Assembly (NCBI RefSeq): GCF_026240635.1
Contig: NZ_CP110848.1
Coordinates: 2,501-66,500, forward strand
From: Trichothermofontia sichuanensis B231
Lineage (GTDB): Bacteria > Cyanobacteriota > Cyanobacteriia > B231
Direction: 5' to 3'
DNA length: 64,000 nt
Shown here: positions 52,501-54,354 of the stretch, piece by piece
How positions within the stretch are numbered: the stretch's first letter is position 1
How the letters are laid out: each line of letters starts with the position of its first letter
Translations under genes and position numbers: made by a program
The notes under the pieces: generated by a model
What the model was told of the DNA's origin: nothing
Databases searched by the model: none
What the model saw: only the letters and a program-made list of their open reading frames with translations

Positions 52501-53445
52501 GAACTTATCCCCCTGGCCCAACTCGATCATCCCCGTATTGATGTGTTAGCCAATCTATCGGGAATTTTCCGAGATAGTTTTGCCAATATCCTGGAATTAT
52601 TAGATGATCTGTTCCAACGTGCCGCCCTAGCGGATGAGCCAGAGGACCAGAATTTTATTCGTAAACACGCCCTCGCCATGCAGGCCCAGGGTATTGATAA
52701 TCCAGCCGCCCGCTTGTTCTCCAATCCAGCGGGGGATTTTGGTTCCCTGGTCAACGATCGTGTCGTCAGTTCCAATTGGGAATCGGGAGAAGAATTGGCC
52801 CAAACCTGGGAAAGCCGTAATGCCTTTAGCTATGGCCGTCGGGATACCGGTCAAGCCCGTCCCGCCGTGTTGCAAACCCTGTTGCAAAGTACCGATCGTA
52901 TTGTCCAGGAAATCGATTCCGTTGAATATGGCCTCACCGACATTCAAGAGTATTACGCCAACACCGGTGCCCTCAAACAAGCCGCGGAACAACGCCGCCG
53001 CGCCCAAGGTCGCCGTAGTCCCGTCCACACCAGTTTTGTCGAAAGTTTCTCGAAGGATACGACCCCCAGGAAATTAGAAGACCTCCTGCGCATGGAATAC
53101 CGCACGAAATTGCTCAACCCGAAATGGGCGGAAGCGATGGCCAACCAGGGTTCCGGGGGAGCCTACGAAATTTCTCAACGAATGACAGCACTCATTGGCT
53201 GGGGCGGTACAACGAATTTCCAGGAAGCCTGGGTTTACGATCAAGCCGCAACGACCTATGCCCTTGATCCAGAGATGGCAACCAAATTGCGCAAGGCCAA
53301 TCCCGAAGCCTTCCGCAACATCGTTGGACGGATGTTAGAGGCCCACGGACGCGGGTTCTGGCACCCGCAACCAGAGGTATTGGCGAAGTTGCAATCCCTC
53401 TATGATCTCTCTGATGCCGAAATTGAAGGGGTCGCGATCGAGTAG
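49522..53445 (+). CDS. Magnesium chelatase subunit H (BchH/ChlH paralogue)
   Basis: ATG 49522 has a perfect GGAGG site 6-7 nt upstream, so the extra 92 codons back to 49246 are unlikely to be coding (1307 aa). The CobN/BchH fold is clear: FGMHGTVEWLPG near residue 650, the YAANNPSE motif, and the C-terminal KLLNPKWAEAM and GRMLEAHGRGFWHP segments. The subunit binds protoporphyrin IX and Mg2+ and works with ChlD and ChlI. The start differs from the usual cyanobacterial ChlH, suggesting a second, BchH-like copy. Two in-frame segments (about residues 230-248 and 513-555) look like dispersed DNA repeats turned into protein. The gene ends 4 bp from the convergent Uma2 pseudogene. Confidence 0.85.
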   Translation: MPRIVLLTGFESFNVDLYRQAAQLAQSRCPQLAISVFSDRDLAQDPDRVAAALQDAQVFFASLIFDYEQVMWLRERVQAIPIRLVFESALELMSLTQLGKFAIGDRPKGMPKPVKFILDKFSTGREEDKLAGYISFLKTGPKLLKFIPVQKVQDLRNWLIVYGYWNAGGPENVAAMFWHLAKHYLQLSPQDLAALTEIPEPVTIPNMGLVHPDYQGYFESPRVYLEWYKGVRLTTKTRRHEGETKAAAPVVGILLYRKHVITKQPYIPQLIRHFEEQGFIPVPIFINGVEGHVAVRDWLTTDAEQAQRQQGVNPTPSLSPEAVKVEAIVSTIGFPLVGGPAGSMEAGRQVEVAKRILSTKNVPYIVAAPLLIQDIQSWTRRGIGGLQSVVLYALPELDGAIDTVPLGGLVGDRIYLIPERLQRLTGRLWQWINLRRTPVAERKIAIVLYGFPPGYGATGTAALLNVPRSLLKLLQALKEQGYTVGDLPDDAETLIEWVRFADEEVRLRDRDLASRPLTRRGGLIPTPSGKHSIPVNRPSSDNGSSPSPTPALTTVKVPQLERWLGYLLTRRIERCWQSLTDCGIRTLGDEYWLGGLQLGNVWIGVQPPLGISGDPMRLMFERDMTPHPQYAAFYQWLQKAFGAQAVIHFGMHGTVEWLPGAPLGNTGYSWPDVLLGNLPNLYIYAANNPSESILAKRRGYGVLISHNVPPYSRAGLYKELVNLRDLINEYREDPEKNFALKEAICKKILDTGLDADRPFAEAHRLGIEFTPENARMFSDQVFNAYLVDLYAYLQILEDRLFSSGLHTLGEAPDAETLAGYLRAYFGDDLPAAVIDILCRDAIDLKTLETQYGPETPYQVPRDRLETALQIRDRLAQTGEELTNLLRGLNGEYIPPAPGGDLLRDGPGVLPTGRNIHALDPYRMPSPAAYERGRAIARQLIAQHLEEQGQYPETIAVMLWGLDAIKTKGESLGILLELVGATPLKEGTGRIVRYELIPLAQLDHPRIDVLANLSGIFRDSFANILELLDDLFQRAALADEPEDQNFIRKHALAMQAQGIDNPAARLFSNPAGDFGSLVNDRVVSSNWESGEELAQTWESRNAFSYGRRDTGQARPAVLQTLLQSTDRIVQEIDSVEYGLTDIQEYYANTGALKQAAEQRRRAQGRRSPVHTSFVESFSKDTTPRKLEDLLRMEYRTKLLNPKWAEAMANQGSGGAYEISQRMTALIGWGGTTNFQEAWVYDQAATTYALDPEMATKLRKANPEAFRNIVGRMLEAHGRGFWHPQPEVLAKLQSLYDLSDAEIEGVAIE
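50218..50246 (+). repeat. ACCACGAAGACACGAAGG repeat inside the chelatase gene
   Basis: TTAACCACGAAGACACGAAGG, with a further CACGAAGG unit, is a known type of small dispersed intergenic repeat. Here it encodes the in-frame sequence LTTKTRRHEG between two conserved blocks of the chelatase. Confidence 0.75.
51072..51135 (+). repeat. Palindromic GTAGGGGCGGGTT repeat inside the chelatase gene
   Basis: CGTAGGGGCGGGTTGATACC is followed by CCCGTAAACCGGCCCTC about 40 bp later, giving imperfect inverted ends. It resembles the repeat after nifJ at 37792 and encodes a Pro/Ser/Arg-rich stretch not expected in the enzyme. Confidence 0.55.
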
Positions 53446-53449
53446 GAAT

Positions 53450-54127
53450 CTACACAGATCCCTCGCTATCTGTTATCTCAATATCCTCATAAAGATCAGC
53501 AATTTGGAGCTGGAAGCTAAAAGTATTGAACGACAGAACACTTTCCGGATCATTGTATTCTGAGAGCAGCCATTGATTGGCAGCAGTTTTAATGTAGTGT
53601 TCCACATAAATCCGATATTGATCGATCAGTAGATATTCTGGCTCTTCTGAGTTTATGGTGGGGGCGCTACGCGCCCCCACCATAAACTCAGCATTTGCGA
53701 TCGTTTATTTGTAGCTGCTGATACTGCTTACCCCAAAATCCCAGAAGAACCGATATTCTTGGAAACTGGGTAGGGTGCGGTAAGCAAGGAATTTTTCACC
53801 ACGATCGTAGTCTTGGGTCGCTTTTGACAAAACTTCTGCAATAAAAACGGGATTTGTGACGGTATCAGTGCGTCCCGTTTGCAACATTAAGGGTTTAGCA
53901 ACCACAATGACATCAGGATAAGTATACAGGTTAGCGACAGGAATCCAGAGGCGCTGATCGGTGATAAAGATGCGATAGGGTTGACCTTTGAGAGCGAGTT
54001 TGAGGGCAACTAGAAGGTTACTGGCAATATCGTTATGCAACACAGCATCTATACCCAATGAGTTCTCCCAAGAAGGGATAATCTCATCCGGGTTGAACTC
54101 CGGTACGGTCGGGTCACTCAGGATCAC
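53450..54127 (-). pseudogene. Uma2-family gene interrupted by a small mobile element
   Basis: The 5' part (54127 down to 53760) encodes a Uma2 protein up to LPSFQEY. It then runs into the inserted element, where translation stops at 53705. The 3' part resumes with YLLIDQYRIYVEHY and reads to the stop at 53450. Removing 120 bp (element plus one target copy) restores a continuous frame of about 185 codons, LPSFQEYLLIDQYRIY, typical of Uma2. So it was an intact gene until a recent insertion. The conserved YPDVIVVAKP and YDRGEKFLAY motifs are still present. Confidence 0.88.
53640..53751. mobile_element. 112-bp MITE with terminal inverted repeats and 8-bp target duplication
   Basis: The exact 8-bp direct repeat GATATTCT flanks the element (53632-53639 and 53752-53759). 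The ends GGCTCTTCTGAG and the complement of CCCAGAAGAACC match at 10 of 12 bases. A perfect palindrome with 21-bp arms (53647-53667 and 53671-53691) around a TAC loop fills one side. The element has no gene of its own. Confidence 0.88.
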
Positions 54128-54354
54128 AGAGATCTACCACCCGTCCGCTTTCTTCGTGACTAGAGCCTGCTTTAGGGAACGCACCGCCCGAAGTGCTTAG
54201 GAAATATGTGCAGAACCAGGGGAAATAGTGTGTTCGTTTCGGCGCTGTTGCCTTCCCTGTCCTGCGGAATCGGTCAGGCAACGCACCTCAACTCACGCGC
54301 CTTTCATCCCGACGCTCACCTTTCAGGTAGAGCACGGGGCTTCCCGTCTAAGAG
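54128..54354. other. Spacer between Uma2 pseudogene and chlN
   Basis: No gene or clear terminator is seen in these 227 bp. Both flanking genes are on the minus strand, so it should contain the end of the chl transcript and the Uma2 promoter. Confidence 0.4.

Follow-up and report, generated by a model that had tools for sequence, protein, structure and literature searches.

A probable ISL3-type MITE that occurs in two loop orientations and interrupts an Uma2 reading frame in Trichothermofontia sichuanensis B231

Introduction

Insertion sequences of the ISL3 family (Pfam DDE_Tnp_ISL3, Zn_ribbon_ISL3, and HTH_Tnp_ISL3) share with the element analyzed here a common end motif, GGCTCTTCTG(A/G)G, as well as subterminal sequence and 8-bp target duplications. 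Duplications of 8 bp have been reported for ISL3 elements (PMC12554700), and this length has been called classical for the family (PMC7643977). The present element differs from ISL3 elements in that it is a MITE of 112 bp without a transposase gene, and it contains a hairpin that is not seen in an ISL3 copy (L052) of genome G088. Nezha, as its title in the reference list of PMC10969869 indicates, is a cyanobacterial MITE too. In Geobacter uraniireducens, one copy of the MITE Chunjie disrupts an operon and 37 more are intergenic (PMC10969869); at 178 to 235 bp, Chunjie is longer and more variable than the 112-bp MITE, and the passage of PMC10969869 that describes it makes no mention of loop inversion. 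REPINs are likewise described as high-copy, hairpin-forming miniature mobile DNA, but they are associated with RAYT transposases (PMC3116915), whereas the 112-bp MITE has 8-bp duplications and ISL3-like ends.

Both orientations of a short spacer between perfect arms, together with homogenization of the arms, have been described as a repeated occurrence in yeast, at single genic loci compared across strains (PMC8604942), whereas here the two orientations are found in many copies of a mobile element in one chromosome. Arm homogenization and spacer inversion are attributed there to template switching at short inverted repeats (PMC8604942), a process also covered in PMC8794818. Here we describe an insert in a 64,000-nt stretch (the window, C1:2501-66500) of the genome of T. 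sichuanensis B231, which consists of one contig (C1) of 4,436,989 bp.

Results

The locus lies between reading frames that, from their protein sequences, we take to be chlH-like and chlN-like. An initial annotation, made from the letters of the window, had described a 112-bp insert with a perfect 8-bp target-site duplication and ends that are inverted repeats at 10 of 12 positions. Both descriptions held: GATATTCT stands on both sides of the insert (Table 1), and the terminal inverted repeats are imperfect, with 10 of 12 positions matching between GGCTCTTCTGAG and GGTTCTTCTGGG (the reverse complement of CCCAGAAGAACC). The 21-bp palindrome described at the same place is indeed perfect but turned out to be two 21-bp arms around a 3-nt loop, TAC, which together make up a 45-bp inverted repeat at element positions 8 to 52. 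As single-stranded DNA this hairpin folds with a predicted energy of −28.4 kcal/mol (z = −6.9), a value that none of 200 shuffles equaled. Each of the six frames of the 112-bp element contains stops, whichever of the two loop states described below is present, and the element holds no transposase gene; exaptation of the element as in-frame coding sequence, considered as a candidate, is ruled out by these stops.

Table 1. Features of the insert and of the interrupted frame (positions in the window)
Feature	Position	Strand	Remark
C-side piece of interrupted Uma2 frame	53450..53631	-	
Left target-site duplication GATATTCT	53632..53639	.	exact repeat of 53752-53759
MITE, 112 bp, subfamily A, loop state TAC	53640..53751	+	
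Left terminal inverted repeat GGCTCTTCTGAG	53640..53651	+	resembles ISL3 right ends of genomes G088 and G007
Hairpin 5′ arm, 21 bp	53647..53667	+	overlaps left terminal repeat
Loop, 3 nt, TAC	53668..53670	+	GTA in other, otherwise identical copies
Hairpin 3′ arm, 21 bp	53671..53691	+	perfect complement of 5′ arm
Right 48 bp, ISL3-left-end-like	53704..53751	-	resembles transposase 5′ side
Right terminal inverted repeat, GGTTCTTCTGGG on minus strand	53740..53751	-	
Right target-site duplication GATATTCT	53752..53759	.	
N-side piece of interrupted Uma2 frame	53760..54127	-	usual N-terminus absent or altered

The interrupted minus-strand frame encodes an Uma2 protein (PF05685), and the MITE truncates it through a stop. 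The insert and one duplication (112 + 8 = 120 bp) equal 40 codons, and their removal restored the Uma2 frame, as had been predicted: the N-side piece by itself scored 57.3 bits over profile positions 31-126, and the joined protein scored 83.7 bits over positions 31-168. Matches to Uma2 at E ≤ 1e−20 were found in 47 of 59 genomes (own genome counted). The comparison with uninterrupted homologues that the initial annotation had proposed agreed with its reading, since the eight best homologue places outside this genome, which are homologues of unproven orthology and synteny, are uninterrupted across the junction, lack the 112-bp insert, and are 66 to 75% identical. Even so, restoring the frame does not yield a normal gene of full length. 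Relative to two of the homologues the N-terminal part is absent or altered here, with the alignment starting only at residue 43 or 20 of the homologue; upstream there is an in-frame stop. Because the usual N-terminus is thus also lacking or altered, the Uma2 gene may have been abnormal before the MITE arrived, and the MITE was not necessarily the first to break it. The earlier statement that the gene was broken by a MITE is therefore correct for the interruption of the frame but incomplete for the gene, whose 5′ end is abnormal too.

A genome search with the whole insert gave 40 full-length matches among the 40 scored of 200 candidates, of which 27 were identical (the window's own copy, 100% over 112 bp, included), 5 were 99% identical, and 8 were 97% identical; a perfect 8-bp duplication flanks 24 of the 27 identical copies. 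The 22-bp left end had 179 matches in the genome with up to 3 mismatches, and the right half of the element had 110, against none for the respective controls (a reversed pattern in the case of the left end). In the stretches examined (67 and then 6 more, besides L001-L032; those before the last six had 138 of the left-end matches with ≤3 mismatches, versus 179 genome-wide), we collected 99 core copies of 112 bp, a set that leaves out copies of other lengths (e.g., 2096484, 111 bp; 3360204, 115 bp), copies outside these stretches, and those in which over 6 positions are non-A/C. Exact 8-bp duplications flank 75 of these 99, and when the flanks of different copies were mispaired as a control, 0 of 9,702 pairs matched.

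Seven diagnostic sites divide the pure copies into subfamilies A (50 copies) and C (34 copies). Outside the loop, 45 of the 50 A copies and 29 of the 34 C copies carry no other change, and the 84 pure copies have ten private changes among them; the exact duplication is missing in 13 of the 84. Three elements (212696, 2545092, and 3503638) are flanked by 7-bp instead of 8-bp repeats. The terminal inverted repeats of subfamily C, GGCTCTCCTGAG and GGCTCTTCTGGG, likewise match at 10 of 12 positions. Short length without a transposase, terminal inverted repeats, duplications of fixed length, and many dispersed copies are the marks of a MITE, and the copy number and target duplications, together with the ISL3-like ends described below, uphold that designation; the other copies in the genome that it called for are abundant. 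The analysis also agrees with the earlier suggestion that the insertion is recent. The window copy belongs to the standard A type and shares its full sequence with 26 others of the 40 scored, which supports an insertion that is recent relative to substitution in its own genome, a relative placement that carries no absolute date. A search of viral contigs with an exact 28-base pattern, and also a plasmid search, gave no match in collections from which records very near the source genome are possibly absent.

The copies lie mostly outside long reading frames. Of the identical copies, 24 have intact duplications; 6 of these fall in frames of at least 100 aa (flanks joined), compared with 76% of 780 points drawn at random from the same loci, and at a limit of at least 80 aa the figures are 12 of 24 and 83%. 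Four of the 6 in-frame copies sit at the last residues of their frames (L011, 181/193; L013, 413/414; L015, 483/493; L020, 237/243), and two are well inside: the window copy and L002 (residue 85/226), both in Uma2 frames. The L011 frame is Uma2 as well. The genome has 68 Uma2 domain matches at E ≤ 1, fragments included. Six of the 99 core copies are no more than 100 bp from one of these matches, against a random mean of 0.96 and with 0 of 300 draws as high, in a test that was run post hoc, after the pattern had been seen. We rejected a targeting preference for Uma2, since insertion tolerance in dispensable genes explains the 6 of 99 equally well.

We then compared the ends of the MITE with those of ISL3 elements. 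A domain search and two protein searches found one ISL3 transposase gene in this genome, at C1:3638791-3639560 (L032:2292-3061), and no intact cognate ISL3 transposase. It holds the ISL3 zinc-ribbon and HTH domains and a DDE_Tnp_ISL3 match limited to profile positions 1-87 of 240, and lies in two overlapping pieces in two frames; its match to a 387-aa relative stops at residue 239. Its left end, GGCTCTTCTGGGTTTTTGGTG, is immediately preceded by a MITE left half, and its other side ends at a MITE copy with its own duplication, TGACTTAT, the right end of the remnant having been lost. The search for an autonomous transposase with the same ends, which had been proposed at the outset, thus did lead to an ISL3 gene, but a dead one, and to no intact element. 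The frame of the remnant shifts at an A-run (L032, ~2775), and L052 of G088 breaks at the same place; read by eye, both seem to continue in the −1 frame, and the gene of G007 (L054) is fused. A programmed frameshift or a common mutation hotspot is a possible cause.

The right 48 bp of the MITE resembled the ISL3 left end of this genome better than any of 1,000 shuffles, and with the terminal 12 bp excluded, 1 of 1,000 shuffles equaled the match of subfamily A and none of 1,000 that of subfamily C. The match of the right end is thus strong. Because the right end of the remnant is lost, the match of the MITE left end rests on the ISL3 copies of two other genomes: against the right ends of G088 and G007, with the terminal repeat excluded, 31 and 5 of 1,000 shuffles were as good (subfamily A). 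The left end is about equally like the ISL3 left end of this genome (30 of 1,000 shuffles), and its likeness to ISL3 right ends elsewhere is less decisive and weak beyond the terminal repeat. The ISL3 copy L052 carries the motifs of both ends and is flanked by an exact duplication of 8 bp, GTAGAGTC; the intact G007 element shares this type of short end and has no matching 8-bp flanks. Ten further ISL3 loci, most of them from cyanobacteria, came from a scan of named genomes; of the nine examined, some have end motifs of the GGCTCT type, though more divergent.

Related copies were found in few other genomes, the nearest of the comparison genomes sharing the class with this one. Matches at E ≤ 0.001 occurred in 4 of 96 genomes (own included; up to 9 candidates scored in each). 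Genome G007 has four full-length 112-bp copies that are 76 to 78% identical and have perfect 9-bp ends; their 8-bp flanking repeats are exact in two cases and have one mismatch in the other two. Out of 242 genomes from the class, three have the exact 35-bp hairpin pattern: this genome (G000) 111 times, G007 6 times, and G088 twice. In a search of four genomes, ISL3 transposases of this branch were found in these three and were absent from G075.

Some copies mix the diagnostic bases of A and C. Exact duplications flank 4 of 14 such copies versus 71 of the 84 pure copies (p = 4.6e−5); copy 1132116, which has a third base at a diagnostic site, is within the 99 and on neither side of this comparison. 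Duplications flank all three copies of the mixed pattern CCCACCC, and several private changes are found in the CACCCCC copies; some of the mixed patterns are probably ancestral, not mosaic. For the copies with mismatched flanks, no exact reciprocal partner was found among the copies examined. There is precedent for taking mismatched direct repeats to indicate that IS copies have recombined (PMC7643977). The counts suggest that later recombination between copies would have produced A/C mosaics without matching duplications, and this loss points to the family as a likely source of rearrangements.

In the 74 copies that are identical outside the loop within their subfamily, the loop is either TAC (50 copies) or its reverse complement, GTA (24 copies). 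Both states occur in both subfamilies (among the copies without other change, 27 TAC and 18 GTA in A, 23 and 6 in C). Point changes would need three hits to convert one state into the other, and these copies show no intermediates; ATA, in two copies, is the one further loop among the 99 core copies. Older copies carry other loops, e.g., TCC, TTA, TGC, and CTA. Among 24 distinct stems, two-sided changes are seen at pairs 11x49 (A-T, G-C, and T-A), 17x43 (T-A and G-C), and 24x36 (G-C and A-T). Thirteen of the 24 have no pairing at the outermost position, 8x52, and one-sided changes occur at other pairs. As the sequences compared are related, the two-sided changes offer support, not proof, for a process that keeps the arms matched.

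Discussion

Taken as a whole, these data are very probably best explained by a non-autonomous ISL3-type MITE that was moved in trans in a recent burst. An ISL3-family DDE transposase would have acted on the MITE ends in trans, giving insertions with 8-bp target duplications, and the copies would then have multiplied, for the most part outside long reading frames. The helper would have been the remnant found here or an intact sister since lost; it may also have been encoded on a replicon missing from the assembly. The dead state of the helper suggests a MITE family outliving its own transposase.

Other identities of the element were weighed against this one. The strong hairpin, the high copy number, and the position of most copies outside long frames would also suit a palindromic repeat, either of generic type or REPIN-like and mobilized by a RAYT (Y1) transposase, instead of a DDE-type MITE. 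REPINs, however, are not known to leave target duplications, and with exact 8-bp duplications at 75 of 99 core copies and a right end that matches an ISL3 end, we consider this identity very improbable. Hairpin stability and the bias against long frames are equally what a conserved regulatory or RNA element, with the hairpin as a terminator or sRNA, might display; yet the target duplications and the interrupted frame show insertion, 92 of the 96 genomes compared, with as many as 9 candidates scored per genome, gave nothing at E ≤ 0.001, and Rfam reported no family at its gathering score over 53400-54200, the best of four subthreshold hits reaching 26.3 bits against a cutoff of 44, so that such an element is hardly to be expected here. 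Transposases of other families can also make 8-bp duplications, and the only ISL3 gene found in this genome is dead, both of which would fit mobilization by a transposase of another family. Against this, the right-end match to ISL3 reaches beyond the terminal repeat, and all three genomes with the hairpin pattern hold this ISL3 branch while G075 does not (in a search of only four genomes); we regard it as unlikely and retain the ISL3-type MITE as the preferred identity.

The element is ordinary in kind, and what is new here is the presence of both loop orientations in otherwise identical copies. No published title or abstract that we found describes an ISL3-derived MITE with a flipping loop, which is weak evidence, as subscription literature is thinly covered in such searches. 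We suggest that the hairpin arose as a fold-back of the element's own left, ISL3-right-end-like end, with a GC-rich tip, and that template switching between the arms during replication would invert the loop and keep the arms largely matched; cruciform processing or recombination between the arms may yield the same flips. A tentative proposal, to which we lean somewhat less than halfway, is that the hairpin of each copy acts as a reversible one-bit recorder, in which in-place template-switch flips outpace point mutations and the same process repairs the arms. The loop polymorphism could instead have come from one flipped master per subfamily that arose once, with both masters then amplified by transposition, and this falls only just short of an even chance. 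In that case the loop counts could stem from two source copies instead of many flips. With no other differences between the copies, the flips cannot be placed on a tree, and in 82 A or C copies the loop state is linked neither to strand (p = 1.0) nor to duplication status (p = 1.0) nor to subfamily (p = 0.23). What speaks against two masters is that, in this genome, at least four backgrounds include both states. Besides A and C, they are seen in a group with a GGTTCT end (CTGGG stem, perfect stems), with GTA at 547051, 1413309, 1425583, and 3541190 and TAC at 1627297, and in group D, with TAC at 2806854, 3168697, and 3713663 and GTA at 3812955; in G007, TGA and TCA loops stand on two TTTAGGG stems (L042 and L050). 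Several inversions would therefore be needed even with two masters, unless recombination spread the states. With about 100 near-identical insertions in both loop states in one chromosome, loop inversion is measurable against substitution, and if the recorder proposal is true, the identical copies are dozens of parallel replicas in one chromosome from which the flip rate relative to the substitution rate could be read.

Several repeats related to the MITE were also noted. Five members of the GGTTCT-end group (C1: 1413309, 1425583, 1627297, 547051, and 3541190) have a hairpin beside a GGTTCT(T/G)CTGGG end, occur in lengths of 88, 98, 111, and 216 bp, and all have exact 8-bp duplications. A second repeat (TATAGTCATTGCAATTTAGGCTGAAACAG.. 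or TATGGTCAATCCAAATAAGAACGATACAG..) lies inside or beside the MITE copies at 3442621, 3541190, 1846000, and 1586063 (C1). At C1:2424458-2424516 (L107), a 59-bp palindrome has MITE left ends on both sides, no right half, and unmatched flanks. In G088, near-identical hairpin cores are found in a different dispersed repeat (L034, L037, L041, L043, and L046; flank like AACCGCCAAGGCGGTTAGGACGGGGACATTT), a pattern that looks as if the hairpin were common to unrelated elements.
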